NCBI GenBank assembly: GCA_014904985.1
Contig: MU128982.1
Span: 177,560 to 241,559, forward strand
DNA length: 64,000 nucleotides
DNA from: Hydnum rufescens UP504
Lineage: Eukaryota > Basidiomycota > Agaricomycetes > Cantharellales > Hydnaceae
Direction: 5' to 3'
Below, one piece after another: positions 10,571 through 56,764 of the stretch. The translations under genes and the position numbers were made by a program. Positions within the stretch are counted from its first letter, which is position 1. Each line of letters begins with the position of its first letter. The notes beneath the pieces are model-generated. The model made no database searches. It was not told the origin of the DNA and worked only from the letters and a program-made list of their open reading frames with translations.

Positions 10571-10628
10571 TGGCAGGAGTGGTAGGATTTTGATATTTTC
10601 CAGCCTTGAATGTTATTTCTGAAAATTA

Positions 10629-10701: not shown

Positions 10702-12051
10702 AGTTCTGGAGCTGGAACTTATTATCCAACATTGAAGTCAGCAATAGCATTTTGCATGTCTTCCTCAGTCCAGTGCTGAGATTTTGGACAGTGTCCCTTG
10801 CCCATAGTGAAAGCAGGGAGGGAGAGGAAGTTTGTTTACTTGTTGTGGCTTGCTTACCTTACATGGATCAAAATGCCCATCAATCTGATGGCCTTCATCA
10901 CTGAGCCTTGACACAAGAGATGCCCATATTCCACCCAGAGATAGTCAAGAACCTTCCTCATGTCAAACAAACAGTTTTATCACTGTGAGGGGGCCCCAGG
11001 CCTGGTGAATCCATTTATGGGCATTCAAAATGAGTGAATTTTAATATATTTCAGGACTGATTCACTTCATGAGCAAGCAATTTTGCAGTTTCTACACATT
11101 TTTTTGCTCAGGGTCCTAGACACCTTCCATGTGCATCTACAGTATGAATTTGGAGAGCAACGGAATAGAATTGGGGGCTCTAGGAGGGCAATGGCAATTA
11201 GTAGGGTCTGGCAACGGCAGTGATATGTAATAGTACTTCCGCTGCAAACCCAAGTTACCCAATAGTACGAGGCAGCTTCTGCCACTTTCCCACCCTCATA
11301 CTAGATTCAATTCTCGCCCTTCGAGTAATGCCAGGTCTTCCTGCCGAGCATCCCGACCCTCTTGCGGACAAATTGTTTCCGACATACAAATCTTTCCGCT
11401 ATCCTGCACCTCTTCCTGCTCTAGGACCCAATCCCGAGAGTACTTCCATGGACAATGAAGCCTACTGACAGGGAGGCGCTTTTTTCGCAGTGCTCGGGTC
11501 GCATTTGCATTGAGTGGTGACCTTGCAGATTTGTGGGCTGATCCAGGACCCCAGGTCAGCAGGTGTCATGTGTAATCATTCTAGGAGGACTGGTGATCCG
11601 GAAGCGCTCATCTCCGACGTGCTCCTGAGGAATCTTTATTCTGCCAGTGACAGCGGCACAATACAGGAGATGAAAGCCGTATGATCTGCAGGTGATAAAA
11701 CTATTGCCAGAGAAAAGACGGAGCGCCCCAATTATATTCGTCTAAGAGGTCCGCCCTAGGCACCTAGCCATTACCTTGTAGGTACCACCCAACGTGGTAG
11801 ATAAGAGAGATGTCTACCACCGGCGTAATCACTATGTTCAATTCAATTCAGGGTCCTTCCAGTATAGTAAGCTCTGTGAGGGTAATTTTTTGACATTTTC
11901 CCCACTGAACGATCCACAGTGCCAGTAGTACAATTTAGCACCCCGGACATTCCCATCCGCAAGCTGTCAACTATGGACACATACCTCAAATAAAAACACC
12001 AAAAATGCGACGTTCTCACCCCATTTCGCCTTCGCCTTCTCTTCGACCTAG
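10702..12051. other. Intergenic, transition from repeats to gene space
   Basis: No gene is supported. Composition changes near 11,050-11,300 from AT-rich repeat sequence to the more GC-balanced sequence of the rest of the window. The last 150 bases, including the TC-rich tract CGCCTTCGCCTTCTC near 12,030, are a typical fungal core promoter/leader for the following gene. Confidence 0.5.
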
Positions 12052-35059: not shown

Positions 35060-36192
35060 AGTCGAAGTAAGTGCAATGATCGGTGGGGGGTGTCTGGGGG
35101 GGGTGGGCCATCCTTATAATCTGTACCTCCTGGACCGGGCCGTAGTCGCATCTCATTGAATTGATGTTCAGCTGAGGGCGCAGAGTTTCAGGGGGCTACC
35201 ACCTGCAACGGCCGCATTACCTCATCGGTGCCTGCAATGCATCACCATATTTCAGGATACCATGAGGTACTCGATTGAATGGGAGAGATTGTCATCACGG
35301 TCAGCAGTCCGAGTCACGCTCCTCAGCTGAGGGCCACTTTAAGTATTGAATATTCCCGGGCACTTTTTCTCCCTAGTTCGAAATCTCCAAGCCTACAGCC
35401 AAGGTAGGGCATCGTTGCGCAGTTCCCTCAACGCCCTGAGTAAATTTCTGTCTAGACCACCGGTTTCGACGCTTGCCGTAATTCGGCCAATCCCGAAAAA
35501 TGTTTAGGCGCGCGTCTTCTGTGGCACCCCTTGGCAACTTTTAATTCAAATACAATTGTAGCATTTTCTTAGTTATGTCGCATTGCCTCCACCGTCAAGT
35601 ACATCATAAACACTTGCTATGATTCAGGAGACGATCCTGAGCCCTCTTGCCCGCCATCGAAAATACACGTAAAAATTCCCCCACTGCTGTATTAATTGGC
35701 CACATAACGAGATTCTATCCCGACTGAAACATCACGCCTTGCTCCTTATCTTAGCCGAGTTTGAAAAGAAATGCCTCATCCTTTCGGCAGAGCGTGGTGA
35801 TTTAATTCGACTATGGCGGGATTGTTCTGGCCAAAGGTTCCGTCTTGGTTCACAGTAACCGGAAATATGCTCCCGAACGTCTCGGGGTTCCGATCTAGAG
35901 AGGGAGAGGGGCGAATGTCTTATCGATCAAGTTTTGATCGAAATAGGTAGGTAATCATGTTTCATGGCCAGAGAGCCTCTCATCTCAGATGCGAGTAACA
36001 ATAGCCTTGACGCGCGCACGCTGCATAATTATTTGTTCCAACGAATCAGGGAGGGGAGGGCATGAGAATAACAGAGCCACGAAGAGTAAATATTAGCAGG
36101 GGGTGAAAGAGGTGAGAAACTGCATGACTTGGGTGCGCGAGGAGAATCCCGATACGTTACGTCTTCTTCCCTTGACTGGACTCTGGAAACCA
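35060..36192. other. Gene-free stretch
   Basis: About 1.1 kb upstream of the aldolase and downstream of the permease. No frame longer than about 60 codons has coding features. G-rich GTGGGGGGTGTCTGGGGGGG lies at 35,080. A palindromic CATTACGTAACGTATCGG / CGATACGTTACGTC pair lies at 36,149-36,209, inside or beside the permease 3' end. Confidence 0.5.
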
Positions 36193-38683
36193 TTACGTAA
36201 CGTATCGGAAATGCACCCAATCGGCACCAGCACCCGCATCGTTGAGCATCTCTTCGTCGAGGTAGTCGTGTCCATCCGCACTTGTTTTATAGAATGGCGA
36301 ATCTCCTGTCTTATATAATATGCTAGGACCGTGAATCGCGTCTTTCCGGGTATTAAGATATCTAAAATAAAAGGATAGGCTAAAACGCAAGGAGGCTCCC
36401 GAGGAAGAGGAGACCTGCTCCGACGGACATCCTGTAACAGGGGCCGGGTCGGTTTTCATTTTGGTATGACATCAAAAATATCAAAGTGAGACTGACCCTC
36501 GGACGTAATAGGGTTTCTCGCTTGCAGGATAAAGGCGGACGCCGAGAATGGGACTATGAGAAGTGTCGTTAGCGTAACAAGGGGGGTCCGTTTCCGATGC
36601 CACACGACTTACCCGCATTGGCCAATCACGCCAAAAAGAGCCAAACCAGCACCCCGTTGAGACTCTTTAACTTGGTTATTAGACAACCAAGCTATTGCAC
36701 ATTGAATGCCGCATCAGTGATATGTTCAGACTCTGGCTCCATCACAGAGCTCCAATACGAACCGAAGAGCACTGACAATAAATGCCACAAAATCAGGTTA
36801 ACACTTCAGTGAAAAGTGGTACAGGACACCCACTTGGAATGGCAGTGAAGCAACCGATCTATATGTGTGTCAGACACAAGTACCCATTAGATATCGTCCT
36901 TTTGTGTTGGGGATGCGAACTTACAGCTACAAGAAATATGGCTCCATAGCGCACCCAAGGCCCACGACAGGTAGCAAGTACGACGTAGCCGGTTCCGCCC
37001 ATGGCACTGAAAAAGGATACGAACAGTCCTCGATGCCTCAGTCGGTCGGACAGGAACATAAATCCAATGGCAGACATCCATGCCGCGAGATATGGAGGAG
37101 CCGAAAGACCTTGGAGGCAATTAACAGGTGCTCAAAGAATTCACAAAGACACCTGCCTTGAGCATTGATCGAAGAGAAGCCAGCGTCATTAAGGATTGTT
37201 GGTAGATACACCTTGTTCGGCAAAATGGGAGAATTGTAACGGAAATACAAACACATAGCATCTTCGCTCACCGGTAGCGAACCATATGTAACGTTCATGA
37301 TAAAGAATATAGCAGCGGACAGATAATTGATCGGGTCGCAAAGCGAAAGTAGGACCTGACTCCATTCGATACCCCCTGATCCGCCTTCGTCCTTTCGTTG
37401 TTTGTCGCCTTCCGTGCTGTTAGAGCTCCGCAGGCGCAATTGAGCAAGATCTCGTTCGCGCGGGGTGAGGAAACCGCAACCCTGCGCAAGGAAATCATAA
37501 GTGCATCAAAACACTAAAAATCGATTCACATGCCCGTACCTTGATAGAGTTGGGTAAAAGCAAGTATACCACAGGTACCAACAAGACCGTAGGCAACCCC
37601 TCTATTATAGAAAATAGCGAATATGTCAGGCATAACAAACATCGCATTATAGGGTCTATCAATCTTACCAACGATGAAAAGTAATCGCCTGAGCAAAACT
37701 GTCAAGTGCTCATTTCAAGAGACCAGAAAATGCACCATCATACCAGGGTGCGATTTTAGAACTAGTGCATGTACAATACCATAAGCTAACGCCCCAGCAA
37801 AAGACGAAGCCAGGGCCGCCGCAGAGACGTATATGCCAAAGCGAAGACCATATTGATATCGCGGGTAGAAATACGAAAGGAACAGCGCAATTCCTGGAAT
37901 AAACGATGCCTCGAACACACCAAGGAAAAATCGTGCGACCATAAGACCTTGCCAATTGAAAGCGGCTGCCTGAAGCCTGTGAACTTGGTAAGACTCCAAT
38001 TTAGGCTCCGGAGGACATTCTGACATTGAGGTGAGGCCCCACGCTAAAGGCATCGTAGTACCTAGAACTTTCGGTGACAGGACTGCATATGATGAGCGTG
38101 TGTCAACTAATCTCAAGATAGATATTCACTTTTCCAAGATAGGACCATCTGTCATTATGAAGCAAGTTTAGTCCTTAGTGTGGAAAACGAGGGATGTTAC
38201 GAACTGTTTGGAAAAGCTGGAGGAGGAGCGTAAGCAACGCTCACATCGAACAACTAGAGCCACGAACCAGATAAGTGATGTAATATATCGTCAAAAGCCA
38301 CTGATATTGGCTCGAGCTGATTCGAAGTTCCGTCTTCATCCCTGCGGTGTACGCATTTCCTATGTTTGATCTACAGTACTTATATTAGGGACGCGCATCC
38401 TATGATCAATACGAATGCCGGACCTATCGAGGAATGCCACAGCATATAGCAGAAATATTCTAATACTACGGGTATCAGCATCTGCCAGGCATCAATAGGT
38501 CAAATTGATTCTGCACATTGGGAGGATGTGAAGATCCAATTTTCGCGTCAGGACACGTTCCTCTTGGCGGGTATATCCGCCTGTGAGGGCAACCGTTTCC
38601 GAGGCATCATACCCATCGTCGCCAGTGAGATAGCTGGAGTGTCCCGGGCTCGGCGGGTCTGGAACTAACTGCGCCTTTGACAT
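36193..38683 (-). CDS. MFS permease, anion:cation symporter (Dal5-like) family
   Basis: Twelve-helix plasma-membrane importer of small organic anions; this family includes allantoate, nicotinate and vitamin permeases, so the substrate is not predictable. ATG 38683 (MSKAQLVPDPPSPGHS). Diagnostic pieces in order: EERVLTRKLDLHILP, then FLLYAVAFLDRSGIRI, IGNAYTAGMKTELRIS, QYQWLLTIYYITYL, QAAAFNWQGLMVARFFLGVF (motif between helices 4 and 5), FIPGIALFLSYFYPRYQYGL, YLPTILNDAGFSSINAQGLS, APPYLAAWMSAIGF, PILGVRLYPASEKPYYVR and a cytosolic tail ending ADWVHFRYVT. Many short introns. A frame correction (TTTT for TTT) is needed near 36,383, just before the last exon region. Confidence 0.85.
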
Positions 38684-38928
38684 GGGCGCGGCTGCGTGAA
38701 TTTTAGTGAAGGGCGAGGGAGAAAATGCCCGCTAAGTTTTTTTCACGCCTTTGGATTTCGGATTATCCCTAACATGTCAAAAGGTGACAGGTTCACTGCC
38801 ACAATCGTCGCGTGGGAATACTTTAATTTATTATGGTTTACTGTAAACTTTACGTACTACATGCTCGTCGTCGAGAGTAGCACGGAGCTACATCTACACG
38901 CAATGTATCTGGGCGCTCTCACTGGAGC
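38684..38928. promoter_or_regulatory. Permease promoter / array boundary
   Basis: About 245 bases between the permease start and the first array unit. AT-rich with TTTACTGTAAACTTTACG near 38,837. No gene seen. Confidence 0.4.
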
Positions 38929-40040
38929 CTAATCCTTACTCACAATTCTGGCGGAAAGTCCGCAGAAACCGCGCGAGGACCAGGGGCGAGCATCACCTTT
39001 TTCGGTTGTCCTTCTCGCAACCGTAAAATTAGTGGCGGAGGCTGCAGATAGCATCGCCCCAATTTCGATGGGCGCACCGTTTCCCTTAATCGTCATAGAG
39101 ACTTGACAGGAGCCGCCGGACGAACACAGTACCCCTTTCACCATGTCCATGAATTTGTCGGTGGGATAACCCTTCTGGGTTTATACTGCCGTCTGCACAT
39201 TGAAATAGTTCAACGGGCATGGGAAGTGATAGTTGACCTACATATTTGGCTCCAACTCCCTTAGGGTCCTAGTTCGTCTGGCCTGGAAATGAGCTCATAA
39301 TACCTCACCGCGTATTGTATCATCCGTGACGTCCCAAGAAGGTCAGACAGATGCTTCCTCATGCTGATTTAGGGTGTAGAGTTGGGATGTCATAGGGTCT
39401 ACGATCTGCCGACCGTAGGTCCCAAGTACGCCATAAACCGTATCTAAAGAAAACGGTAGAACTGTGGCATCGGGTCACAGACTGAGCCAGTATAGGAAGA
39501 AAACTCACCAGATCGCTGTTATGCGGATCAACTGGAATCTGTTCGATCTGCATCGCCACCTCCACTAATGATAGAGCTTCTTCCATAATTAGCACAGCGC
39601 CGGATGAGGCGGCGCCGTCGACCAGGAGTTCGCCCGTCACCGCAATATTCACAGTCCCTCGCACTTAAACCCAGCACTTGCAATCAGTATCGATGGAAAA
39701 TCGAAGAAAAGTGTGGTCAGGAATATGTACGCAACTGCTCGTTCTTGCCAATTCTATTTCTAGCCAACTCTGAATCCCCGGAGGATATAGTATGCGCGCT
39801 TTGAACGATCGATCGAAGGGTTTGAAGTATGGTCACGATGCCGTGCCTTTCCGACTCTGTAACTCCTGTAGCAAAGCCAGAAGGTACGGACCAAACTGGA
39901 ACGGTAATCTATACCCTGCCCCGATTGTACCCACCCTATGAAGGGAAGTAGGCCACACGATTAGTTGGATACGATGCCCAAGGGGCGTATCGCTGATTCC
40001 ATGGCGCTGACCGTATACATCGGGAGTGCAATTAACTCCC
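38929..40040 (-). pseudogene. Array unit 1, subtype I, lacking its N-terminal module
   Basis: Contains only the middle and C-terminal modules of the family: a diverged central module (DTPLGHRIQLI frame, 40,030-39,833), GELLVDGAASSGAVLIMEEA (39,640-39,570), PVDPHNSDL at an exon end (39,515) and the later KGYPTDKFMDMVKGVLCSSG with VSMTIKGNGAPIEIGAMLSA (39,170-39,030). The sequence ends near 38,929. At about 40,040 it joins directly to the C-terminal module of unit 2, so its 5' part was lost in a recombination. Not expected to be functional. Confidence 0.6.
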
Positions 40041-40044
40041 TTCG

Positions 40045-42293
40045 ATACTTCACTCAAATCCATCCATCCCCACGTCCAAATTTGTTGTCTATTATCGATC
40101 CAATCAGCCCCCCTTCCCACACTCGAACTCCTTGCGAGCAATAATGAGAGATCTACCTAGTTGGTCACACGGATTGAATGGCCACATTGACACTTACAGT
40201 GCATGCCTAAAACGTGACACAACAACTGGGTGAATCAGCCGCAGGAAGAATATCTCAAGTGTGGGCCAGCAATGCGACTGTTTCCGTTCCTAAGATAACT
40301 GTGAGTGTGGCTGGCAAAGATCTCCCCAAACAATTAGATAAAAATCAGAGGAACTATATGATCGTGGTGCAATTGTGAAAAAGAATAGCACGAAGTTACA
40401 TGTATCTACATGTTCTCACGGGATCCGAGAGCCTAATGGCCTACTCACAATTCTGGCGGGATGTCCAGCAGGAACGCTTGTGCTTGTTCCAGACTGGCCC
40501 GAGGACGAGAGGCGAGCATTGCCTTTTTCAATTGCGGTTCGTGCAGCCGAAAAATGACTAGCGGAGGCTGCAGATAACATCGATGGGTGCACCGTTTCCC
40601 TTAATCGTCATAGAGACTGGCATGAGCCGCCGGACGAACACAGTGCCCTTTTCAGAGTGTCCATGAATTTGTAGGTGCGATATCCCTTCCGGGTTCACAG
40701 CGACGTCTGCACATTATAATGTGACGGGTATGGGAAGTGAAAGTTGACCCACATATTTGCCTCCAACTCCCTTCAGGGTCCCAGTGTGTCTGGGCTAGAA
40801 ATGAGTTCACAATATCTCATGGCGTATTGTGTCATCCGTGACATCCCAAGAAGAGAAGGCAGATGTTTCCTCCTCCTGATTTACAGTGTAGACTTGGGCG
40901 GTCATAGGGTCCACGACCTGTCGACCGTAGGTCCCAAGTATCTCATAGATCATATCTAAGGAAAACTGTAGAACTGTGGCATCGGGTCATAGGCTGAGCT
41001 AACACGGGAAGAAAGCTCACCAGATCGCTGTTGTGCGGATCAACGGGAATCTGTTCGATCTGCATCACCAACTCGACCAGTGATAGAGCTTCTTCTATAA
41101 TTAGCACGGCGCCGGATGAGATGGCGCCGTCCACCAGGAGTTCGCTCGTCGCTGCAAAAGTCACAGTCCCTCGCGCTTTAGATCCAAGCACTTGCAATCA
41201 GTATCGATGCAAAACCGAAGAAAAGTGTGGCCGGGAATATGTACGCAACTGCTAGTTCTTGCCAATTCTATTTCTAGCCAATTCTGAATTCCCCGTTCAT
41301 TCAACAAGCCAATGTGGAGGATATAGTATGCGCGCTTTGATCGATCGATCGAAGGGTTTGAGGTATGGTCACGATGTCGCGCCCTTCCGACTCTGTAGTT
41401 CCTATAGCAAAGCCGGATGGTACGGACCAAACCGAAACGGTAATCTATACCCCGCCCCGATCGTATCCAATCTATGAAGGGAAGCAGGCCACACGACGAG
41501 TTTGATACGATGCCCAAGGGGCGTATCGCTGCTTCCATCGTGCTGATGGTATACATCGGGAGTGCAATCAACTGCGGAATGATAAAAATCGGAAACTCGT
41601 GAGCAACATCCAATATTACTGTAGAGGGATACTCACTTGAAAACGATCCAGAACCAAACTGAACTCATTTGCGGATGCCACCACATCTCCACCAGTATTC
41701 TTAGTTCGATTAGAGAAGAAACGACGCCCCTTTGCAACGCCTAACGGTGACGGTCTCATTTTCTGTGAAATGGTGCCCAACTCCCTGTATCCCATGGGTC
41801 CCGACGAGTCCCTCAGTGTCCAATGAGCCCGGTACAGTGCTTTTATGCTCACCTGCTCAGTCTACGAAGCTGATGTTGAAGATCGGCAGGGAACAGGTGC
41901 TGCTCTAGATAAACTAAGGGCTCGAGGAGTTCTGCAAGGAGTTGAACATGTGTCTCGAGGCGCACCAACGTGCTGTTATCAAGCGCGGTAGTCTAAAGAT
42001 ATTGGACAAAGGGACAAGCGGAGTAAGTGGTGATATCGAACACTGAACCATAGCATCAAACTGACCAGATGGATTTCCTTCATGACATTCAAGAAAGCGC
42101 CGATCTCATCCCTAGCGCCGTCGACTAGAATCCTCCTGAGTGCATTCTCTGCGGACAGTATTGCATTCACGGATATCCCTCTGGAGGGGATTTCGGGAGG
42201 CCCATGGTTGTTCGTGTTCTGTAGCTTTCGGAATGTAAAGACGGCGCGTAACCGCTCAGTCCACTTCTCCTTTTGTCGGGTTGCGGGTTCCAT
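40045..42293 (-). CDS. Array unit 2, subtype I, MLKL-NTD-like family protein
   Basis: Start ATG 42293 (MEPATRQKEKWTERLRAVF). Exon 1 encodes SVNAILSAENALRRILVDGA and IGAFLNVMKEIHL; exon 2 (42,000-41,860) ALDNSTLVRLETHVQLLAEL and YLEQHLFPADLQHQLRRLSR; exon 3 SANEFSLVLDRFQ. These helices resemble the N-terminal adaptor domain of mushroom NLR-like proteins. Then come the family-specific parts: TISTMEAAIRPLGIVSNSSC (41,540), LLVDGAISSGAVLIIEEALS (41,140), FSLDMIYEILGTYGRQVVDP and WDVTDDTIRHEIL (40,830), CSSGGSC (40,650, one A missing). The C-terminal module near 40,045-40,140 is cut at the joint with unit 1. Function unknown. Confidence 0.55.
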
Positions 42294-42839
42294 TGGTGTA
42301 GGTGCTGGAAAACAGAGAGACCGCGGAATGAGGGGGGGAAAGGACGGCTCGTTGAAGGGGACGTTGGTGCCACGATTTCATAATTATTCTTTGAAATGGA
42401 AAATGGGAATACTGTAATGGGAGCAGAACGCGCGCGGCGGGTTACCACTTCAATTTCTGGCACAGCCACGGCTCTATACAGAACGCACGGTACTGGGCAC
42501 CCCTCCCAAAGCCTTACTTGTTCTCGCGAATCCCGCGAGCCGCCTCCAGCAGGACCGCTCAAGAGGGTTCTGTTTCTGATGGGCATTCCTGTGGCAGCAT
42601 AATCACCAGTCTAACCTCCAGATGCAATCCACCCAATGTCAACGGTTTCTCCGCTCCTCTTGGACCTAGAAAATCAGCGGCAACGATTAAGCGAGTACCC
42701 TCCACCGCGTCAAATTAATTTCTCTGTGCAATAGTCTTCTTTGCTTACAGCATCATATGCACGCAAAAATGCCGTGATCAGTCGAGGGAGGCACAGACCT
42801 TGGCTCACAGTTTGTCTTGCCTGGAAACGAGCTCACACT

Positions 42840-44305
42840 TCACGACGGATTATGTCATCTGTGATCTCCCAAGCAGACCAAATAGTAATGCCGGGTTCCT
42901 TATAGTCTTAGAGTTGGTCCGTGGGGACGGCCTGTGACGACTCGACCATGGGACCATAGCCTTTGATAAATCAGGGATAAAAGAATTGCACAGCTATCTC
43001 ATCAGTCGTGGATTGAAGAAACATATCGGAAAAAACTCACCTGATCGCTTCGGGTGACTTAAGCTTCAACTCGCATTGTCAGGTCCACCAGAGAGTATGC
43101 TTGTTCCATGACCAGAACGATGGAGGAGTTCATGGCGCCGCGAACCAGAGCCTCGCATGTCGGGGAAAAACTACCTATCCCTCCTGCTTTTGAGTGCTGG
43201 TAATCAGTGACGATCCCAAACTGAAGAAAATGTGGACCAAAGACATCCACGCAACTGGGAGTTCCTGATATTTCAATTTCTAGCCAATTCTCGATACGCC
43301 GTTCATTCAACAACCCTATATGAAGGAAATCGCACATGCCCATCCGATCATTGAAGGAAGTGGCATACGTCTGGCGGCGATACCGTGGTTCTTCCGCTCT
43401 GTATTTTCTGTAGCACAGCCGGATACTTTTGATGAGACCGAATCGGTAATCTACATCCCGCGCAGTTCGTATCCAATTTATAAAGGGGAGGAGGCCGCAT
43501 GAAGAGGTTGATGCAATGCCTAAGGGACGTATCGCTGCTTCCATTGTGCTGATCGTATACATCGGGAGTGCAATTAACTACAGCCAGACGGATAGAAAGA
43601 TGAAAACCGGAAATATGGAACCGACACCTGAGGTGAGATCGACACTCACACGAAAACGATCGAGAACCAAACTGAAGTCCTTTAAAACACAATCGCATCA
43701 CCAGTATCCACATTTTGACGGGATGAGTAGGGCCTAGTTGTAGCAGATGCCGTAGCTTGCGTCATAGTCTGCGAAACAGTGTGTAATTCTCTGTATGCGA
43801 TGGATTCCAACGACCTCGTCAATCAACAGGCCCCAAGAAATCCCGCGCAGTAGTTCGACACTCGCCTGCTGAGCCTACGATGCTGATGTTCAAGATCCGC
43901 AGGGAGGAGCTGTCGCTCCACGTAAACTAATGGTTCTAAGAGTTCTACGAGTCGGAGATTTCTCTTGAGGCCCCGCAGTGTTTCTTTATTAAGCGCCACG
44001 ATCTAAGATCGCGGAGACAAGAGTGCAGTGAGTGTGATGAGCGATGATACACGAAAAATGAGTCATATCATGAAACAGACAAGATGGATTTCCTTGATCA
44101 CATTCAGAAAAGCGCCGATCCCTGCTCTAGCGCCGCTCACAGGAATCGCATTGATGACGTTCTCTGCGGACACTACTGCAGCCACAGAGATGCCTTGGAG
44201 GAGGATTTTGGTGGGCACGTCGCTCTTCGCGTTCTGTAGTTTCGGGGTGTGAAGAATACAAGAATCCGGGGAATTCATTTTGCCTTTCGTTTAGCTGTGC
44301 CATCC
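42840..44305 (-). CDS. Array unit 3, subtype II, MLKL-NTD-like family protein
   Basis: Subtype II differs from I in exon 1: AAVVSAENVINAIPVSGARA then GIGAFLNVIKEIHLV (44,200-44,065). The start MDGTAKRKAKW seen in unit 5 is here displaced by a frame change near 44,250, so the printed 5' end is approximate. The second helical exon (43,990-43,870) is close to that of the other units; the central module reads TISTMEAAIRPLGIASTSSC, INWIRTARDVDYRFGLIKSI and IENWLEIEISGTPSCVDVF. The 3' module is CEALVRGAMNSSIVLVMEQA. It ends near 42,840 in sequence matching the CDxxDDTIRREV-type terminus. Confidence 0.5.
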
Positions 44306-44475
44306 ATTTCTGGTATGCGTTGGGAACTAGCAAGACTGTGGAATTCAAGCTATAAAGGAAAACCAACGTTGAGAGACAGGACTGGTGAAGGCGACCGGTC
44401 GAACTTCGGCTACGGTTTGCCTCAAGGATTTCATTCCTCACTCAGGTATTGAAATGGAATTTGCGTGAGCGGCAG

Positions 44476-45140
44476 TCACCGGAAATTCAATTTGCCAACA
44501 CGCTTCTCCCCATACGCGGAGGCTGCAAGGTCTTCCCGTGCAATAGCAATAGTACTTTCTATTGTCCGCAGCCGAGTCTGTTCGGCTCCAGTTTCAGAGG
44601 TACCGAGTTCCGGAGGCACCGACGGAGTGTCGGAGGTAGCAGCTGACTCGGACGTCAACTGACAATGCAGCGCCTTATCGGCGCTTCCAGTTGTCCCCGC
44701 ATTGTCCTCCTTGGCGACCGAGAGCCCCGGCGGCTTGCTACACAATCCGCTTTTTTTCGCTCTCTGCATGGACATACCTTTCTTCCAGCACACTCACTAT
44801 ATATACAATAGACATTCGCATAGTGTGACAACCTTTCCTCGGTTTGTTGCACTATAGGCAAGTCTGCCTGTACCCCCTCCTCTCGTAGACTGATAAGAAC
44901 CTTTCTTAGTTCGTCATACTATCGCTCTGACACCGCCACGCAGGATGCCAGGCGCAGCCCTGGGTTGTACTTCCCAATTTGGTGTGTAGGTCAGGTTAAT
45001 TTTGCCCTGTTTCCTGTTTCCTGGGCACTTGGTACTTGATCTTCTTTGCATAGCTGGGGTATAATGTCACGATCAAAAGAAAAATAGCAAAAAAAGATGT
45101 CTCCAGGGGTCAAAAATAGCACAGAATGTGTGTAAAGTCC
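44476..45140. other. Spacer between array units 3 and 4
   Basis: 44,476-44,793 (minus) has a 105-residue Ala/Ser/Thr-rich open frame upstream of unit 3; it may be leader sequence rather than a gene. 44,978-45,140 is similar to 52,865-53,045 beyond unit 7 (shared CCAATTTGGT, TGTAGGTC, GGTT and CACGATCAAAAGAAAAA-like stretches), so this spacer marks the edge of a duplicated block. Confidence 0.5.
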
Positions 45141-47134
45141 TCAACGAATAGAAAGGATCTCTTCCAGGTCCACCCCCACGATTGGATCTCCCTTCAACAC
45201 TTCACTCAAATCCATCCCCACGTTCAAAATCGCCGTCGTATTATCAATCCACTTAGGCCCCTTTCCACATTCAAACTCCTTGCTAGCAACAATGAGAGTT
45301 CTACCTCGACGGCCGAGCATCGGCAAACCTTAGTGCATGCTTAAAAATCCACACAATTGGGTGAATCAGCGGCAGGAAGGATATACTAGTGGAGGCTGGA
45401 GATAACGTCGATGGGTTCACCGTTTCCCTTAATCGTCATAGAGACTTGGCACGAGCCGCCGGACGAACATAGTACCCTTTTCAGAATGTCCATGAATTTG
45501 TAGGTGCCATATCCCTTCTGGGCTCACAGTGACGTCTGCACATTATAATGTAACGGGTATGGGAAGTGAAAGTTGACCTACATATTTGCCTCCAACTCCC
45601 TTCAGAGCCCCAGTTTGTCTGGGCTAGAAATGAGTTCACAATATCTCATGGCGTATTGTGTCATCCGTGACGTCCCAAGAAGAGACGACAGATGTTTCCT
45701 CCTCCTGATTTACGGTGTGGGTGGTCATAGGGTCCACGACCTGTCGACCGTAGGTCCCAAGTACGTCATAGATCATATCTAAGGAAAACTGTAGAACTGT
45801 GGCATCGGGTCATAGGCTGAGCTAACGTGGGAAGAAAACTCACCAGATGGCTGTTGTGCCGATCAACGGGAATCTGTTCGATCTGCATCACCAACTCGAC
45901 CAGTGATAGAGCTTCTTCTATAATTAGCACGGCGCCGGATGAGATGGCACCGTCAACCAGGAGCTCGCTCGTCGCCGCAAAAGTCACAGTCCCTCGCGCT
46001 TTCAACCGAGCATTTCGAATCAGCATCGATGAAAAACCGAAGAAACGTGTGGCCAGGAATATACACTCAACTGCTAGTTCTTGCCAATTCTATTTCTAGC
46101 CAATTCTGAATCCCCCGTCCATTCAACAACCCGATGTGGAGGATATAGTATGCGCGCTTTGAACGATCGATCGAAGGGTTTGAAGTATGGTCACGATGCC
46201 GTGCCTTCCCGACTCTGTAGCTCCTGTAGCAAAGCCGGACGGTACGGATCAAACCGAAACGGTAATCTATACCCCGCCCCAATCGTATCCAATCTATGAA
46301 GGGAAGCAAGCCACAGGACGAGTTCGATACGATGCCCAAGGGGCGTATCGCTGCCTCCATGGTGCTGACGGTATACATCGGGAGTGCAATCACCTACGAA
46401 ATGATAAAAATCGGAAACTATAAGTGACATCCAATATCAGAGGGATACTCACTTGAAAACGATCCAGAACCAAACTGAACTCATTCGCGGATGCCACCAC
46501 ATCACCACTAGTATTATCAGTTTGATTAGAAAAGACAAGACGCCCCTTTGAAGTGCCTAACAGCGACGGCCTCATTTTCTGTGAAATGACGCGCAGCTCC
46601 CTATATCACATGGCCATGGGCCCCAACGAGTCCCTCAGTGTCCAACGAGTCCCTCAGTGTCCAATGAGCCCCGCACAGTGCTTTTGTGCTCACCTGCTTA
46701 GCCTACGAACCTCATGTTGAAGATCTGCAGGAAACAGATGCGGCTCGAGATAAACCAAGGGCTCCAGGAGTTCTGCAAGCAGTCGAACATTTATCTCGAG
46801 GCGCAGCAGTGTTTTGTTATCAAGCGCGGTAGTCTAAAGATATGGGACAAAGGAATAAACGGAGTAAGTGACAATAATCCGACGCCAAGCCATACCATCA
46901 AACTAACCAGATGGATTTCTTCACGACACTCAAGAAGGCGCCGATCCCATCTCTAGCGCCGCCAACTGGAATCCACCTGAGGGCATTCTCTGCGGCCACT
47001 ATTGCATTCAGAGATATCCCTTTGGAGGGGATTTCGGCAGGCCGATGGTTGTTTGTGTTCTGTCGTTTCCGGAATGTGAAGACCGCACGCAACCGCTCAG
47101 TCCACTTCGCCTTTTGTCGGGTTGTGGTGTCCAT
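45141..47134 (-). CDS. Array unit 4, subtype I, most complete family member
   Basis: Best model of the family. ATG 47134 (MDTTTRQKAKWTERLRAVFT), with a CTATATAG box about 185 bases upstream. Exon 1 ends GARDGIGAFLSVVKEIHL (one G missing near 46,920). Exon 2 (about 46,846-46,703) gives LRLEINVRLLAELLEPLVYL and HLFPADLQHEVRRLSR. Exon 3 gives VISQKMRPS and SANEFSLVLDRFQ. Then MYTVSTMEAAIRPLGIVSNS (46,375), LLVDGAISSGAVLIIEEALS (45,970), IYDVLGTYGRQVVDP, WDVTDDTIRHEI (45,650), FMDILKRVLCSSGGSCQVSM then TIKGNGEPIDVI (45,400) and the end module RTLIVASKEFECGKGPKWID...EEILSIR with stop at 45,141. The first three exons fit an MLKL-NTD-like helical domain; the rest matches no domain I know. Confidence 0.6.
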
Positions 47135-47689
47135 TGTTGTACACGTTGGAAAGGAGGGAGAGCACGGGAAGAGAGGAGGAAAGGGACGGGTCGTTGAGGG
47201 CGACCACTTGAACTTTGGCGCCTCGATTTCATAATTACTCTTTGAAATGGAAAACGGGAATAGGAGCCGAACACGGCGGTGAGTTACCGCCAATTCAATT
47301 TCTGGCACAGCCATGCCCCTATATAGAACGTATTGGGCATCTTCTGGAAGCCTCGCGACCCCGTGAGCCACCTCCAGCAGGACCGCTCGGGAGGACTCTC
47401 GTGCGTTCCTGCAGCTTCTCCCGAGCGTTCCTGCGGCCGCATCATCACCAGTCCAACCTCCAGATACAATCCACTCAATGTCGACTCTTTCTCGGCTCCT
47501 CTTAGACCGAGAAGGTTGGTGGCAGCGATTAAGCGAGTGCCCTAGTACCCTTCACCATGTCAAATCAGTTTCTTTGGGCAATACTCTTCCTTGTTTGCAG
47601 CGCCATATCCACATAAAAACACCATAATTAACACACGGAGGCTGGGGTGACCCTGGTTTTAAGCCACCTATGATCACAATTTGTCTTTC

Positions 47690-49197
47690 CTGGAAACGAG
47701 CTCACATTTCACGACGGGTTGTATCATCTGTGATATCCCAAGAAGACCAAATATGTTGTCCCTCATAGCGGCCTGAGTAGAGTTGGTCTGTGGGGTGGCT
47801 TGCGATGAGTCCACCCAAGGACCTAAGCTCGTCATAAATAGTGAGTAAAGGATGCTGTGCAGTTGTCACATCAGTCGTGAACGGAAGAAACATATCAGAA
47901 AAACACTTACGATATTGCCTGGGGTGACTGGAGCATCCTCGACTCGTATTGCCAGCTCCGCCAGAGAGTGTGCTTGCTCTATGACTAGAACGAGGAAGGA
48001 CCTGAGGCGCCGCGAACCAGAGCCTCGCACGTCGGGGAAAAAACTACGGTCCCTTTTGCTTTTGAGTGTTGGTAATCAGTGTCAATCCAGAACTGAAGAA
48101 AGAAATTGTGACCAAAGATATGCACGCAACTGGAAGTTCCTGATATTTCGATTTCTAGCCAATTCTCGACTACCCCGTTCATTCAACAACCCTACATGAA
48201 GGAATTGCGCAGGCCCATTGACTCATCATAGAAGAAGCGCATATATGTAGTGGCGATACCGTGGCTTTCCACTCTGTATTTTCTAGAGCACAGCCGGACA
48301 GTCTGGACGAGACCAAATCGGTAATCTATATCCGGCGCAGTTCGTATCCAATTTATAAAGGGGAGGAGGCCACACGAAGAGCTTGATACGATGCCTAAGG
48401 GGCGTATCGCTGCCTCCATTGTGCTGATCGTATACATCGGCAATGCAATCAACTACAGTCGAATGGATGGGACAATGGAAACCGTAAAAATGTAACTGAT
48501 ACCCAAGGTGAGATGGAAACTCACACGGAAACGGTCGAGAACCAAACTGAAGTCCTTCGCAAATACAATCGCATCACCACTGGTATCCACATTTTGACCA
48601 GAGAAGCGATGCCTAGTTCTAGCAGATGATATAGTCTGCGTCACGGTCTGAGAAATAGTGCGTAATTCTCTGTATACGATAGATTCCAACGACCTCGTCA
48701 ATCAACAGTCCCGAGAAACCGAGAAATTCCATGCACTAGTTCGACACTTGCCTGCTGAGCCTACGAAGCTGATGTTCAAGATCCGCAGGGAATAGCTGTC
48801 GCTCCATGTAAACTAATGGTTCTAAGAGTTCTATGAAGAGTCGAACATTTCTCTCGAGGCCCCGCAGTGTTTCTTTATTAAGCGCCGCGGTCTAAGATCG
48901 CGGAGACAAGAGTGCAGTGAGTGTGATGAGCGATGATACACGAAAAATGAGCCATATCATGAAACAGACAAGATGGATTCCCTTGATCACATTCAGAAAA
49001 GCGCCGATCCCTGCTCTAGCGCCGCTGACAGGAATCGCATTGACGACTTTCTCTGCAGACACTACTGCAGCCACAGAGATGCCTTGGAGGAGGATTTTGG
49101 TGGGCACATCGCTCTTCGTGTTCTGCAGTTTTCGGGGTGTGAAGAATACAAGAATCCGGGGAATCCATTTTGCCTTTCGTTTAGCTGTGCCATCCAT
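47690..49197 (-). CDS. Array unit 5, subtype II, MLKL-NTD-like family protein
   Basis: ATG 49197 (MDGTAKRKAKWIPRILVFFT). Exon 1 carries GISVAAVVSAEKVVNAIPVS and GIGAFLNVIKGIHLV. Exon 2 (about 48,880-48,760) encodes the ELLEPLVYMERQLFPADLEH helix pair; exon 3 (48,700-48,530) RELRTISQTVTQTISSAR and FAKDFSLVLDRFR. Central module TISTMEAAIRPLGIVSSSSC and INWIRTAPDIDYRFGLVQTV; then CEALVRGAS; the end exon is IYDELRSLGGLIASHPTDQL with WDITDDTTRREM and stop near 47,702. DNA identity with unit 3 is very high in exon 1, indicating a recent duplication. Confidence 0.55.
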
Positions 49198-49480
49198 TTC
49201 TGGTACGCGTTGGGGACGAGCAAGACTGTGGAATTCAGGCTATAAAGGACAACCAACGTTGGGAGGGAGGATTGGTGAAGGCGCGACCAGTCGAACTTCG
49301 GCTACGGCTGGCCACTCTTTACCCAGACATTGAAATGGAATTGCACGAGTGGCAGTCACCGTCAATTCAACTTCCGATTCGCTTCTCCCCGCCATGCCTG
49401 TTGAGTTTCGGTTGCTCCAAGTCCTCGGCATTCACTGCCATTTGAGAGCCCCTGATGACTTACCACATGATACACCTTTT

Positions 49481-50563
49481 TTAGCTTGTACCTCTAGCTA
49501 GATCTCTTCCGCCCCAAGTATGTCGTAAATCGCGTCCAAAAAAAACTGTAGAACTGTGGCATTGGATCAAAGACTGGGCCAACTTTGGAAGAAAACCCAC
49601 CAGATGGCTATTGTGCGGATCAACTGGGCTCTGTTCAATCTGCATCGCCAACTCGACCAATGATAGAGCTTCTTCTATAATTAGCACGGTGCTGTCAAAC
49701 AGGAGCTCGTTCCTCGCAGCAAAAGTTACAGTTCCTCACGCTTTAGACCCGGCATTTGCAAAGGGTAATCTATACCCCGCGCCGATTGTATCCAATCTAT
49801 GAAGGGAAGTACGCCACACGACGAGTTTGATACGATCCCCCAGGGGCGTATTGCTGCTTCAAGTTCCGTCGTGCTGACGATATACATTGGGGAGCAAGTG
49901 ATATCCAATATTAGAGCGATACTCACTTGACAACGATCCAGAACCAAACTCAACTCGTTCGCGGATGCGGCCGCATCCCCACTAGTATCCTCAGTTGTAT
50001 TGGAGAAGAAATGAGGCCTCTGTGCAGTAGATAACACTGATGGCACCATTTCTGTGAAATGGCTCGCAAATCCCTGTATCCGATGGGCCCCGACGAGTCA
50101 CTCAGTGTCGAATGAGCCCCGTACAGTACTTTTATGCCTACCCACTCAACCTATGAAGCTAATGTTGAAGATCGGCAGGGAACAGGTGTCGCTCCAGATA
50201 AACCGAGGGTTCCAGGAGTTCTGCAAGGAGTCGAACATTTATCTCGGGGCGCAGCAGCGTTTCGTTATCAAGTACGGTAGTCTGGACATATTGGACACAG
50301 AGGAAGCGATGCCCCAAGCCATATCGTCGACCTGACCAGATGGATTTCCTTCGTGGCGTTCAAGAACTGGCCGATCCCATCTCTACTGCCCCCGACTGGA
50401 ATCCCCCTGAATGCCTTCTCTGCACACACTATTGCGCTCACGGATATGCCTTTGGAGGGGATTTCGGCAGGGCCATGGTTCTTTCTATCCCGTAGTTTTC
50501 AGAATGTGAAGCCGGACATAACCGCTCAAACCACTTCACCTTTTCTTGGATTGTGGTGTCCAT
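49481..50563 (-). pseudogene. Array unit 6, subtype I, shortened
   Basis: ATG 50563 (MDTTIQEKVKWFERL), then a frame change near 50,515 before the recognisable SAIVCAEKAF and GIGQFL sequence (50,440-50,345). Exon 2 (50,290-50,150) and exon 3 (SANELSLVLDRCQ, 49,960) are present. The central module is abridged (RPWGIVSNSSCGVLPFIDWI) and jumps at about 49,755 to NEL-like and IIEEALSLVELAMQIEQSPV; the end exon (49,540) is incomplete. The VSMTIKGNG and C-terminal modules are absent. Probably a decayed copy. Confidence 0.5.
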
Positions 50564-51039
50564 TGCGTAAATGGGGAGTGCATAGGAGAAGGAAGGACCG
50601 CCAATGATGAGAAAAGGGCACGTTGACGGTGTCCGCTTAACTTTGACCACAATTGCATAATTGTTCTTTGACATGGAAAATGCTTGTACCACCTGCAGAA
50701 TACATCTGGCGCAGCCTTAGTCCACGCCTCTATATATACATAACCTATCTGGGCACTTCGTAGTCTCGGAGGCCTCATTCGTACTCGCGACACCCCCAGC
50801 ACGACTGACTTTTCATACAATCAGGCCTAGGGTCTCGTTCGATGGATGTTCCTGCGGCGGCATCCAGACACAATCCATCCAGTCTCGACGCTTTCTCCGC
50901 TCCTCTTAGGCCTAGAAAGTCGGCGGCAGTAATTGAGCGAATGCCCTCCACCGTGCCAAATCAATCTCCCTGTACAACACTCTCCCTTTTCTACAACATT
51001 AAAATAGATAGGGAGGCTGACGTTGGTTTCATACCCACC

Positions 51040-52549
51040 TATGATCTCAGTTTGTCTTGCCTGGAAACGAGCTCACACTTCACGGCGGATTGTGTCATCT
51101 GCGATATGCCAAGCAGCCCAAACATTGTGGCCCTCATAGTCTGCATAGAGTTGGTCCGTGGGATGGCCTGCGGCAAGTCGACCATAGGACCAAAGCCTAT
51201 CATAAATCCGGAATAAAGGATACTGCATAGTTGCCTCATCAGTCATGGATTGAAGAAACATATAGGGAAAAAATTCACCAGATCGCTTCGAGCGACTTGA
51301 GCATCTTCAATTCGCATTACGAGATCCACCAGGGAGTGTGCTTGTTGTATGACTAGAATGCGGTGGGATTTGGCGGCGCCGCGAACCAGAGCCTCGCATG
51401 TCGGGGCAAAAACTACTGTCCCTTGGTCTTTTGAGTGTTGGTAATCAGTGTCAATCCAAAAGTGATGAAACTATGAGCAAAGATATCCACGCAACTGGAA
51501 GTTCCTATCACTTCGATTTCTAGCCAATTCTCGATACCCCGTCCATTCAACAACCCCACATGAAGGAATTGACACACACCCACAGGATCATCGCAGGAAG
51601 GGGCATATATATGGTGGCGATGCTGTGGTTTGACCACTTTGTATTTTCTGTAGCAAATCCGGACAGTCTGGATGAGACCGAATCGGTAATCTATGTCCCG
51701 CGCAGTTCTTATCCAATTTATAAAGGAGAGGAGACCACATGAAGAGTTGGATACGATGCCTAAGGGGCGCATCGCTGCTTCCATTGTGCTGATCGTATAC
51801 ATCGGCAGTGCAATCAACTACAGTCGGATGGATGGGGGGGGGGGGTGAAAACCGGAAATATGTAACTGATACCCAAGGTGAGACGGAAACTCACACGAAA
51901 ACGATCCAGAAACAGACTGAAGTCCCTTGCAAATATGACTACATTACCACCAGTATTCTCGTTGCGATTGGAACGACGCCTGGCTGCAGCAGATGATATA
52001 GACTGTATCATGGTCTGAGAAATAGTGCGTAATTCTCTGTATACGATGGATTCCAACGACTTCGTCAGTCGACAGTTGCCAAGAAACTCCATGCAGTAGT
52101 TCGACACTCGCCTGCTGAGCCTACGAAGCTGATGTTCAAGATCCGCAGGGAATAGGTGCCGCTCTATATAAGCCAAGGGTTCCAAGAGTTCTACAAGGAG
52201 TCGAACATTTCGCTCGAGGGCCTTCAGTGTTTCTTTCTTAAGCGCCGGAGTCTAAGGGTTCGTCAAAAACAGTGAGTGGTGATGCCCGCACAATATTCAT
52301 GAACCATATCATGAAACTGACAAAATGGATTTCCTTGATGACACTCAGAAAAGCGCCGATCCCTTCTCTCGCGCCACTCAGGGGAATCGCCTCGAGAACT
52401 TTCTCCGCTGACCCTATTGCATTCATAGAGATGCCCTGCGAGGGCGTTTCGGCGAGCACATTGTTCTTCGCCTTTTGGGGTTTCCGGGCCGTGAAGACGA
52501 CAAGAAACTGGTAGATCCATCTCGCCTTTCGTTTAGCTGCGCCCTCCAT
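51040..52549 (-). CDS. Array unit 7, subtype II, MLKL-NTD-like family protein
   Basis: ATG 52549 (MEGAAKRKARWIYQFLVVFT). Exon 1: SMNAIGSAEKVLEAIPLSGA and GIGAFLSVIKEIHFV. Exon 2 and 3 are open together over 52,185-51,895: MEPLAYIERHLFPADLEHQL, RRLSRRVSNYCMEFLGNCRL and FARDFSLFLDRFR, followed by an intron containing a run of eleven C (minus strand). Central module TISTMEAAMRPLGIVSNSSC, INWIRTARDIDYRFGLIQTV and IENWLEIEVIGTSSCVDIF. The last exon contains IYDRLWSYGRLAAGHPTDQL and WHIADDTIRREV ending near 51,058. This is the outermost unit; DNA beyond 53,060 is single copy. Confidence 0.55.
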
Positions 52550-52799
52550 ACCTGGTACGCGTTCGCAACTGGCAAGACTACGGACTTCAAGCTGGAAAGG
52601 ACAACCAACGTTGGCCCGGGGAGGTAGGTTGGTCAAAGCGACCAGTCGAAGTTCGGCTACCGTTCGCCTCAAGGGCTTTCATTCTCCAGTCGCGTCCTGT
52701 GCACGAGCGGCAGCCACCGTCAATTCAAATTTCCGACCCATACCCGGAAGCTGCAAGGTCTTCGCGCCCACTTTCGGCCGTGGTTTTGAGGCATCGATC

Positions 52800-53600
52800 G
52801 TTAATCGTTGCTGTGGCTACGCATGGATTCCGGATACGATCCTGGTCAGTTTCCATCACGCCTCCCCCAATTTGGTATGTAGGTCGGGTTCATTTTGCTG
52901 TTTCTTCAAAGTTTCCTTGATACTTGGGTCGAATATTTGATTCTTCTTTTCGAATAACTTGTGAGACAACGCCACGATCGAAAGAAGAGGCACAAGACGG
53001 CCCCTAGGGGTCGAAAATAGGGAGGGAGTGTATAAAGTTCTTAACGAATACAATGGACATGAATGAATTAGGATGAAGGCCAAGATACGTCCAGTCTTAG
53101 ATAAAGATAAGGAGGGGAAAGGAATTGCGAACGCTCACGGAAAGACCGCTAAAGAGCCCAGAAAGGCGACAGGAATACAACTCAACAGCCTGATGGGTGG
53201 CCGATACATGGAAAGGGTCGGAAGATGAACGGAACCACACGAGACGAGAATTGAAGCATTCCGACTTAGAAATACAGCACCATCGGCGGTAGATGTGGTA
53301 GTCATTGCAACGTACGAAAACTTTGGTGCATCGCTCGGCATTACAGCCTGCTCTGATGCTGTGGGGGCGACTTTCAGGGAGTGTGCTGCAGTCAGTGCAA
53401 ACTAGGTGGGCCGAGGAGCAAATATTGAGCGCATGGTACATGGCCAGGGATATTACAAGCACAATACATGTTACTCGGTAGCCTCATGGGATCCATTTGC
53501 CGATATTATTACAATTGGATCCCTTCCTCGTCTTGATTGTCATTCACAATTGCAGGATGGGAGCTCAGACGCAACCACAGCCCGCCCTGCACAGAATTTA
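52800..53600. other. Array edge and intergenic DNA
   Basis: 52,865-53,045 repeats the spacer at 44,978-45,140. A Cys-containing open frame at 53,462-53,097 (minus, 121 residues, NAERCTKVFVRCNDYHIY) has no known family and no supporting context. No gene is claimed. Confidence 0.4.
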
Positions 53601-53604
53601 AACG

Positions 53605-55804
53605 TCAAAAACATATTGCACCGGACACCAAGAACAGGCTTGCCTCCACATATAGTGTCAACGAAGATTTGACGCGCACTTTCTCCAAGGCCTGTCTTCC
53701 CACCATGCTCTTCCACTCCTCAGGCGGCAATGAATCCTCAGGTTGCGCGTCGGGAGCGAATGAAAAGGCATTGAAGTGTTGCAGTAGCCGGATGAGAAGG
53801 TACGAACATTTATGGTAAGCAAAAGTCTGGCCCAGGCTTCGAAAATTCAACAAAGAAACAGAAAAAGTAGGAAAAATAAAAATATTAGCATGATCTCGAA
53901 GCCCCTGAAACGAGGAGAATTTCACAACTCACCAAGTTCGAGGGCCAGCGTTGAATGGCATAAACCTGATCCCGTGCTCCAGCGATTTATCTTTATCCTC
54001 CATGTCGTCAACAAGCCATCGCTCAGGTCTGAACTCTTCAGCATCTGCTCCCCAGATATCTTTCGTCTTTGCATTAGCAAAAACACGTAGGAAACACTGA
54101 CGCCCTCCTGCATAAACATAGGCCCCAGATTCGACAGTGGGGATGTTAAAATTGTTGGCTCGACTAGGAATAGTAAGTACCGCGTTAACACGAGATCAAG
54201 AATTTCCTCCAAAGACGGACAATATTACCTGCTCTTCGTATATTCATAGGTATTGGCGGGAACAAGCGGAGGGTCTCGTTCAAAACAGCTCGTACTGTCA
54301 CCATGAGTGAGGGGCTGTTACGACAGGATCAAGTGCACTCACGATACTTCATTCGTTTTATCCCGTCCAATGTCGGTGGGCTTTGGGTGCCCACCACTTC
54401 TTCGATTTCATTCTGTAATGTGGTCAGTACCTCGGGATAGAGGGCCAGAGCATACGCGGCGAAAGTGAGGAGGGAGGCAGTCTGGTGCACAAATCAGTTA
54501 ATCTATCGCGTGCAGGCACAAAAAGGAGCAATGGCGCACACTATCCCGGCCCGCAACCAAGAACGATATCAGGGAATCCCTCATGAATGTGGGATCTGAT
54601 GTCGGGTTAAGCATCATGCAACAATCATATGAAATAAGGGAGAGATACCCACCAGGATTCTCTTGTACGAGGTAATCAAGAAATGTGCCCTCGCTCTTAG
54701 CATTGAATAGGCTGTCTTTCCTCTCGATAGCCTTCTGCACGATCGGGAGCACGAATTCATTAATAATGCGAACAGGCTCTTTCGTTCTGTCCCCAGACCA
54801 CAATTCGAACAACCGCCAATTCGAACCTCTGCGAGGAGTTCAGGGACAATCTAAGCGGATGGAACAAAGAGGATGAAAATAGCTCATACCGGGGCCTCAC
54901 TCACATCCGAACCGTTGAACACTAATTTTCTGCAAGGTGTTGTATGCAAGGATAAACGCCGAGTAATCATCAGACGAGGAATTTGACTGTAGACTATTCA
55001 CACAATTTCCGAACAACATCTCGGTTATGGTGTCCATGGTGAACCGCGTGAATAAATCCTGAATATTGATGGCCTCGCCGCGGGAACACGTACTCCCCAG
55101 AATCTGCATAGGACCTTTTCCGTATGTCGCTCGAATAGATCCAAGTGGGAAGTCCGCTCATGGGCAAAGAAAGGGCGAGCGAGGGCACGGTGCTGTGGTC
55201 ATAAGACATCATTGACTGCAACATTTCTTCCCACAGATACATGAAGAGAATTAAAACTCACATATCTCCATGCATCGCCGTCTGTAGTGAAAATGGAGTC
55301 CCCTAGAAAGGCCTCCATCATATCATGAAACTTCTTGCTCTTTTGAAAGCTAGCAAACCGCGTGGTGAATATTTCGTGAATGTTAACAGGATCAGATGTA
55401 ACGATCTGGAAACTTCGTTAAGCTGGATTGGTGTGGGTTCCAGTCCTCATGCGTACTTGATGACCCCAAAGGATTCCCATATCGAACGTTGGGCCATATT
55501 CTTTCTCCCATTGACGCAAGGTATCCCCGCAATATTCCGTACTCTCGAGAGCCACGAGTCTCCATAGTATGTCGATGTTCCCAGGAAGTCTCCCGCGTAC
55601 TTTTGGGATGGTAGAAGCCCCCAGGCGTGCGCGATCACGAGCCAACTCTCGACCGGCATACAAGGAACGCCGCGCCTTAAACAAAAGGACAGTGGCTAGA
55701 CATAGCGCAGCTTGCACCGCCCACGAGAGATCGAGTCTGTTGTACGCGTACAGCAGCGGAAACACTACAATCGCAAGCGAGACGGTGGTTGGGAGTCGTG
55801 ACAT
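53605..55804 (-). CDS. Cytochrome P450 (CYP63-like, clan 52 type)
   Basis: ER-anchored heme monooxygenase; CYP63-type enzymes of mushrooms oxidise alkanes, fatty acids and aromatics. ATG 55804 starts a membrane anchor ([15 protein letters not shown] and [11 protein letters not shown]). Then [86 protein letters not shown] (I-helix), [20 protein letters not shown] (ExxR), FRPERW (PERF) and [15 protein letters not shown], with the heme Cys codon split by the last intron (TG/C). Ends at 53,605. A frame correction is needed near 55,115 between EKVL and [11 protein letters not shown]. All key residues are present. Confidence 0.88.
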
Positions 55805-56764
55805 GTCATGGTCACAGTGACCGGCACCACAGTGTTGTGCGCTTAGGTGATGGGATGAAAGCGGCGAGGTGTTATACTTGCGGGTGACCTAGGAAAGGCA
55901 TGTATTCCACCTGCAGGAGGCCCAAGTGATGGAGAAAATCCGAAAACAATTATTGAGGCTATCCCCTTCGGCGCTTGCAGCGCCCCCAGGTTCAATTGTG
56001 TGGGCCTGCGGTCAGCAGATTCTGCATGGAGGATGTATCACGGTCCAGTTCTCGAGTATATCGTGGATTTCCTTCAACGTAACCTCATCAACTGTTCAAG
56101 GAGGACCGGTTCCAAAACCTTAAGATCTGGACTACTGACTCGAGGTCCCAATAAGGTTATTTATCATGACATGAGGAGGGACGTCAGCTTTCGAGCGGTC
56201 TACGTCCAGGGCTCCGAGGTTGAATTTAAAAGGCGGGTTTTGTTCCCGGAGGCGGATTCTGCATAGGCTTCCATATGAGTAATATAGGCAGAACCATGGA
56301 GCTAAAACTTTACACCTCCATAAGGAAAAGTCCTGTATTTCTGACCTTTCCAGAGAGCCTCTTGCCATACCCTTTCTCTGCAGAAGGCAGAAGGAATTTA
56401 CAGGCTCGATCACGATCGGTATGGAATGTCTGGTGTACGACAGCCTATGACAAGACCCACATCCATGTAGCGCTGTCTTCGAAATACCTGAAGAAACGGG
56501 GCCGGAATTTAGTCCACCTCATGGGGAGTCCTCAATAATACTGTAGGCATTCCCAGCCGGGCCAATGCTGAGAGCATTTGTGTGTCTTTGTACCGTGATT
56601 GGGCACAAGGCAGCGAGTGGAATTTTTGCTACCGGTGGTGTTTTCGATGCGACCAGCTGCAGAACTAGGCAGATGAAAAAGGTGGGACATCCTAAAGCGA
56701 TGACACCGTGACCCGTGAGCGTAACGTGGGTCACGCGACGGAATCAATTTGCATTCACCACTTG
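55805..56764. promoter_or_regulatory. Divergent intergenic region P450 / PTC7
   Basis: About 960 bases serving both start sites. A GGTGACCTAGGAAAGG block lies near 55,883 and an imperfect palindrome GTGACCCGTGAGCGTAACGTGGGTCACG at 56,708-56,736, 30 bases before the PTC7 start. Short frames on both strands show no domain. Confidence 0.45.

Follow-up and report, generated by a model that had tools for sequence, protein, structure and literature searches.

What are the seven similar genes that follow one another in tandem, all in the same orientation, on the minus strand of contig C74 (MU128982.1) in the 63-Mb assembly of Hydnum rufescens UP504? This fungus is an ectomycorrhizal member of the Cantharellales (PMC7550596), and the window analyzed here is the whole stretch of 64,000 nucleotides (nt) from position 177,560 to 241,559 of that contig. 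The array (copies u1 to u7, at 52,549-39,298 of the window) had been picked out in a sequence-only reading as a recently expanded family whose N-terminal third resembles the adaptor domains of mushroom NOD-like receptor (NLR) proteins. Our analysis indicates that these genes are one of many clusters of a family spread over the genome, whose architecture is well supported: the front end of an NLR joined to a different partner domain.

Evidence for the NLR front end comes from the NLR genes of this same fungus. Ten places in the genome match the N-terminal part alone; eight of them head NLR genes, and the remaining two belong to family members whose sequence breaks off, one at the end of its contig (C49) and one at an assembly gap of N letters (C44:101,656). 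Seven of the eight NLR-heading places have a same-strand Pfam NACHT match no more than about 0.5 kb away, and the eighth, on C17 (L049), has P-loop and WD40 frames by eye; the WD40 inspection covered C17, C206 and C13, and frames of this type were seen at the last two as well. With family sequences as guide, the whole domain could be modelled in all eight genes (the one at C44:182 kb needs a frameshift), and the actual score of 178 at one NLR locus compares with a maximum of 30.5 in 20 trials on its shuffled DNA. Intron 2 falls at the same residue and in the same phase as in the family in all eight, intron 1 has phase 0 with an offset of one residue in seven, and exon 3 always ends with a DRFQ-type motif followed by GT (seven genes) or GC (one). 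Comparison of the family with a profile built from six of the eight NLR domains gave an hhalign probability of 99.7% over 131 columns at 34% identity, the maximum among 40 column shuffles and one reversal being 0.2%.

The kinship with MLKL is more distant. Five of the six NLR domains matched Pfam MLKL_N (PF22215), with a best E of 3.3e-4, and the one for which bits were given scored 16.3, below the cut-off of 27. Helo_like_N (PF17111) matched one of ten family members, with an E of 0.43. In profile searches of the PDB, MLKL was not among the matches listed for the NLR domains (the best were 14-3-3 proteins, E 0.005), nor among those listed for the family N-terminus (apolipoprotein E and others, E at least 0.16); we have taken the 14-3-3 and apolipoprotein E rows as helix-rich chance matches. 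Genome searches with PF17111 and with the LRAT profile, the latter relevant to the C-terminal domain, gave no matches, and these negatives say little because the control genomes are prokaryotes. The profile and exon-border match with the NLRs, together with the weak MLKL_N match of the NLR domains, places the N-terminus among the NLR adaptor domains and makes it MLKL-like only indirectly, so that the mushroom NLR adaptor type proposed by the sequence-only reading gains its support through the genome's own NLR genes.

Ahead of this NLR-like domain the family carries some 38 extra basic residues. Their net charge is positive in all 33 rows compared (C202 was entered twice), and a tryptophan stands at position 11 in 32 of them, u5 having a stop codon there. 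An amphipathic N-terminal helix was rejected, as just 5 of the 33 rows scored above their shuffled versions at P < 0.1.

Behind the helical domain, exons 4-6 code for a conserved domain of about 200 residues with a predicted alpha/beta order (low-confidence models), which has no Pfam or PDB sequence match and stands where the NLRs of the same genome have NACHT and WD40. No Pfam family reached the cut-off in any scanned family protein or domain. Specifically, there was no NACHT, NB-ARC or repeat domain match in u1, u6 or the 10 aligned members, and no kinase-like match in these or in the C-terminal domain by itself, in agreement with the earlier statement that no kinase, NACHT or repeat domain follows the N-terminus. 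NACHT on contig C74 was not among the genome matches listed.

Each copy of the array was modelled with a purpose-written protein-to-genome aligner that handles splice sites. The array gene has six exons with intron phases 0, 2, 0, 1 and 0 and codes for 376-383 residues. All seven same-strand copies with one module order were found as claimed, and long direct repeats join them: a two-gene block at 40,557-44,511 recurs at 45,385-49,390 (84% identity over 4,075 nt, offset 4,828 nt), and a 1,681-nt direct repeat of 80% identity links u3 (47,645-49,305) to u1 (51,015-52,660). From u1 to u7 the subtypes alternate in the order II-I-II-I-II-I-I, and the window copies form two well-supported clades that match the subtypes in a tree built from 43 rows (42 of them different). 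Copies u1 and u6 are clean, u4 has one frameshift, u2, u3 and u5 have several lesions each, and u7 is both truncated and damaged (Table 1). Since the window copies differ by synonymous rates (dS) of 0.2-0.8 (8 pairs) and five of the seven have lesions, the description "recently expanded" was just partly right. In all three subtype II copies, u1 (52037-52111), u3 and u5, intron 2 starts with GC and not GT.

Most copies shift frame near exon 4 residue 113, and a programmed frameshift was considered and rejected, because a phase-1 intron (74 nt long in u6 and between 62 and 74 nt in most other copies) accounts for the change. Two database proteins discussed below, P0001 and P0003, read through the position of this exon 4/5 intron, and the copy at C43:95161 has there a 72-nt intron without a stop.

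Two tail motifs had been assigned to the protein and are outside it, both sitting past stop codons. The first, CSSGGSCQVSMTIKGNG (the CSSGG stretch), follows the stops of u7, u4 and u6 only, at three places in the whole genome (38932-39180, 40473-40694 and 45392-45520, all on the minus strand, with the frame broken at u6); it is either a lost small gene or mere duplicated flank. EEILSIR occurs a single time in 36,000-56,000, at 45,164, about 0.5 kb past the stop of u4.

The gene model finds independent support in three Joint Genome Institute (JGI) proteins, P0001 (376 residues, from a contig of 1,588 nt), P0003 (326 residues, 1,376 nt) and P0008 (292 residues, 1,534 nt), which are uninterrupted frames over the introns that each spans. 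We infer that the short environmental contigs coding for them are transcripts. They belong to three different subfamilies in the tree, and P0001, the closest of them at 90% identity, agrees with u1 at 337 of 376 residues without gaps, the join across the GC-AG intron 2 included. The sequence-only reading had made its proposal depend on transcripts, on a helical bundle and on an origin other than a transposon. Likely transcripts do exist in the form of these three proteins, an N-terminal helical bundle is predicted with low confidence, and transposon Pfam domains were not found in the 10 window open reading frames scanned, but one divergent member type sits in a dispersed repeat. With u6 alone, the only named protein retrieved was P0002 (BS47DRAFT_426789), which is identical to the gene model on C20 (C20:397246-398726) over a run of 153 residues and whose splicing goes wrong beyond residue 157, a case that shows the public annotation of the H. 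rufescens genome to fragment the family.

Selection was analyzed in the clade of the C43 cluster with two sets, one of 5 lesion-free copies and one of 12 copies with at most one lesion. Purifying selection acts on exon 2, where the ratio of nonsynonymous to synonymous rates (dN/dS) was 0.18-0.20, and on exon 4 (0.45-0.46); the bootstrap intervals of dN-dS lay below zero for both exons in both sets. Exon 3 was constrained in the larger set only (0.51). Between window copies the ratios were 0.32 for u6-u4, 0.39 for u1-u6 and 0.81 for u3-u5, both of which are broken. Positive selection on exon 6 was rejected: the initial ratio of 1.39 was not significant, and the retest gave 0.78 and 1.14 with intervals spanning zero.

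At the scale of the genome, a query of 293 residues gave 143 six-frame matches (E <= 0.001), and family sequence was counted at 93 places on 31 contigs. This count was pooled by hand from the rows of two genome searches, excluding NLR rows and most overlapping rows, and it takes in fragments, single weak matches and possibly allelic contigs. The biggest clusters are those of C155 (13), C43 (9), C268 (9), C74 (7, the array) and C289 (7). The 12 longest matches of the C43 cluster with C268 or C446 were 80-92% identical, which speaks for paralogues, with allelic contigs as the other possibility. Database searches retrieved 25 related proteins in one case and 59 in another; every entry that named an organism was H. 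rufescens UP504 and the others were JGI or ENA entries, although distant relatives in other organisms may be missed because the search needs shared 5-residue words. Judged by titles and abstract openings, a literature account of this Hydnum family was not found, nor was the BS47DRAFT prefix found in the papers searched.

There are known systems with which the family can be compared. Fungal MLKL/HeLo-type domains are described both at the head of NLRs and as stand-alone executioners switched on by NLRs (PMC9815663, PMC12881547), and in mushrooms MLKL-like domains are also reported outside NLRs, where they may be cell-death proteins (PMC9815663). The basidiomycete NACHT-WD40 NLRs with BaMLKL or MLKL_NTD (PMC9815663) are alike in the N-terminal domain over its full length and, in the eight NLR genes of this genome, in exon borders and intron phases; the Hydnum family lacks their NACHT and WD40, has another conserved domain instead and begins with the additional front residues (about 38). 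HET-S, HELLP and the mushroom "putative singular pore-forming domains" (PMC9815663, PMC12881547) likewise carry a helical MLKL-like domain without being NLRs, but theirs goes with a short amyloid motif (no motif search was made here), whereas the partner in the Hydnum proteins is a conserved domain some 200 residues long and their genes lie in tandem arrays. The count of singular pore-forming domains in PMC9815663 may or may not include this family. Animal and plant MLKL also have the helical domain first, a weak kinship at one remove, and differ by a kinase-like domain that Pfam scans did not find in the Hydnum family.

What the proteins do, whether they act at membranes and whether they interact with NLRs can be argued by analogy with these systems. 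Exons 1-3 would code for an MLKL/HeLo-type helical domain, the one that also heads this fungus's NLR genes of the NACHT-WD40 type, and this domain may associate with its counterparts in NLRs or in fellow family members, or act at membranes. The C-terminal alpha/beta-type domain would sense or keep the protein inactive, and the setting could be non-self recognition or regulated cell death. Such a domain, with a conserved partner and no nucleotide-binding switch, is what a downstream executioner, adaptor or decoy could look like, and a role in recognition or conflict would agree with the many copies, their tandem duplication and their frequent decay. Most likely the family consists of NLR-type signalling, executioner or decoy proteins under birth-and-death evolution. 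That the gene family arose from a part of an NLR and its products are free-standing NLR-type signalling proteins we regard as evenly balanced between true and false. The broader proposal is more doubtful, although possible: an undescribed class of fungal innate immunity, with the NLR-type helical domain under a novel alpha/beta sensor, multiplied to about 90 places within a single ectomycorrhizal lineage and serving allorecognition or antiviral defence beside the NLRs.

Several results weigh against reading the array as genes for NLR-type signalling proteins. None of ten family members matched MLKL_N, so the label "MLKL-like" holds indirectly, through the weak matches of the NLR domains, and not for the family itself. 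Both structure models have a mean predicted local distance difference test (pLDDT) of about 56, and with neither did Foldseek reach a match below E 0.001; the matches listed by VIA-align did not include MLKL, a result that excludes nothing. Exons 1, 5 and 6 of the C43 clade are indistinguishable from neutral, and lesions affect 15 of the 22 modelled copies (7 from the window, 15 of C43 type). These lesions would be expected if a chance fusion of an NLR fragment had spread by tandem and dispersed duplication and were now functionless, and so would the divergent member inside nearly identical repeats on C110, C111 and C151. We consider such a decaying by-product improbable, given the selective constraint on exons 2 and 4, the ratio of u6-u4, the 7 lesion-free copies among the 22 and the uninterrupted spliced frames in relatives of three subfamilies.

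A somewhat unlikely alternative, though a better one than decay, is a decoy or dominant regulator that does not kill: its NLR-type domain would bind and restrain NLRs, or its C-terminal domain would serve as bait. The N-terminal domain common to the family and the NLRs of the same genome, the missing nucleotide-binding switch (Pfam scans) and the faster change of exons 5-6 relative to exons 2 and 4 agree with it, but pairing is uncertain because about one third of the residues are common to the two kinds of N-terminal domain. Least probable is an enzyme, with a C-terminal domain of papain-like (NlpC/P60 or LRAT-type) fold that the NLR-type domain merely positions. One weak structural row points to this fold, and a candidate catalytic cysteine is invariant, but the histidine of LHVGL is absent from the C155-type subfamily and the C-terminal domain lacks sequence matches in Pfam and PDB. 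A query for this fold gave 24 weak matches (best E 0.002) to genes with a cysteine motif, and the profile of that family (7 of 8 fetched loci, segments joined by eye) fails against the C-terminal domain, 78 of 100 shuffles scoring equally high. With an NLR helical domain of its own genome joined to a second domain, the family supplies candidate stand-alone proteins for self/non-self signalling. How mushrooms tell self from non-self is described as poorly understood, with models that rest on ascomycetes (PMC8229728), and a multigene family with an NLR front end and another partner domain offers a testable executioner or regulator candidate in basidiomycetes.

Table 1. Copies of the array, their exons and the two domains, in window coordinates.
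Feature	Position	Strand	Description
u1	51076..52549	-	subtype II, lesion-free, six exons, 376 residues
u1 exons	52549-52322, 52251-52112, 52036-51895, 51817-51496, 51427-51279, 51222-51076, then TGA	-	
u1 exons 1-3	51895..52549	-	NLR-type (indirectly MLKL-like) N-terminal domain, predicted helical, residues ~36-170, behind basic N-terminal stretch
u1 exons 4-6	51076..51817	-	conserved C-terminal domain, predicted alpha/beta order
u2	49510..50563	-	subtype I, broken: 3 frameshifts, 2 stops; part of exon 4 and end missing
u3	47705..49197	-	subtype II, broken: frameshifts in exons 4-5, three or five depending on reference
u4	45639..47134	-	subtype I, complete except one exon 1 frameshift near 46,923; sequencing error possible
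u5	43041..44307	-	subtype II, broken by stops and frameshifts; no confidently recognisable exon 6
u6	40810..42293	-	subtype I, lesion-free, six exons, 383 residues
u6 exons	42293-42066, 41992-41853, 41784-41637, 41571-41250, 41175-41021, 40965-40810, then TGA	-	
u7	39298..40175	-	subtype I, 5'-truncated (without exons 1-2), 2 stops and 1 frameshift

Some further observations were made along the way. The repeats on C110 (L044), C111 (L045) and C151 (L046) are 96-98% identical over 3.1-3.4 kb, and each holds a divergent family member together with a fragment that by eye resembles ribosomal protein L36; there are further short matches on C250 and C16, and the repeats are possibly a gene-capturing element. 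The cysteine-motif genes found with the query for a papain-like fold (ENCKWF, SCWWY or NCWW) are multicopy, on C12 (clustered), C259, C108, C85 and C3 (L058-L065). Elsewhere in the window, two frames at 12052-13305 on the plus strand jointly match PF09994, a phospholipase domain of Tle1-like type (E 4e-20 and 1.3e-23), and are probably one intron-split gene, and a repetitive helical open frame at 62409-62948, on the same strand, looks by eye like fungal NLR N-terminal domains, with no Pfam match at 0.01. Next to the array, at 37715-38125 on the minus strand, there is a transporter (MFS_1) fragment under the curated cut-off, and a tRNA-Ser gene is found at 10628-10702, also on the minus strand.

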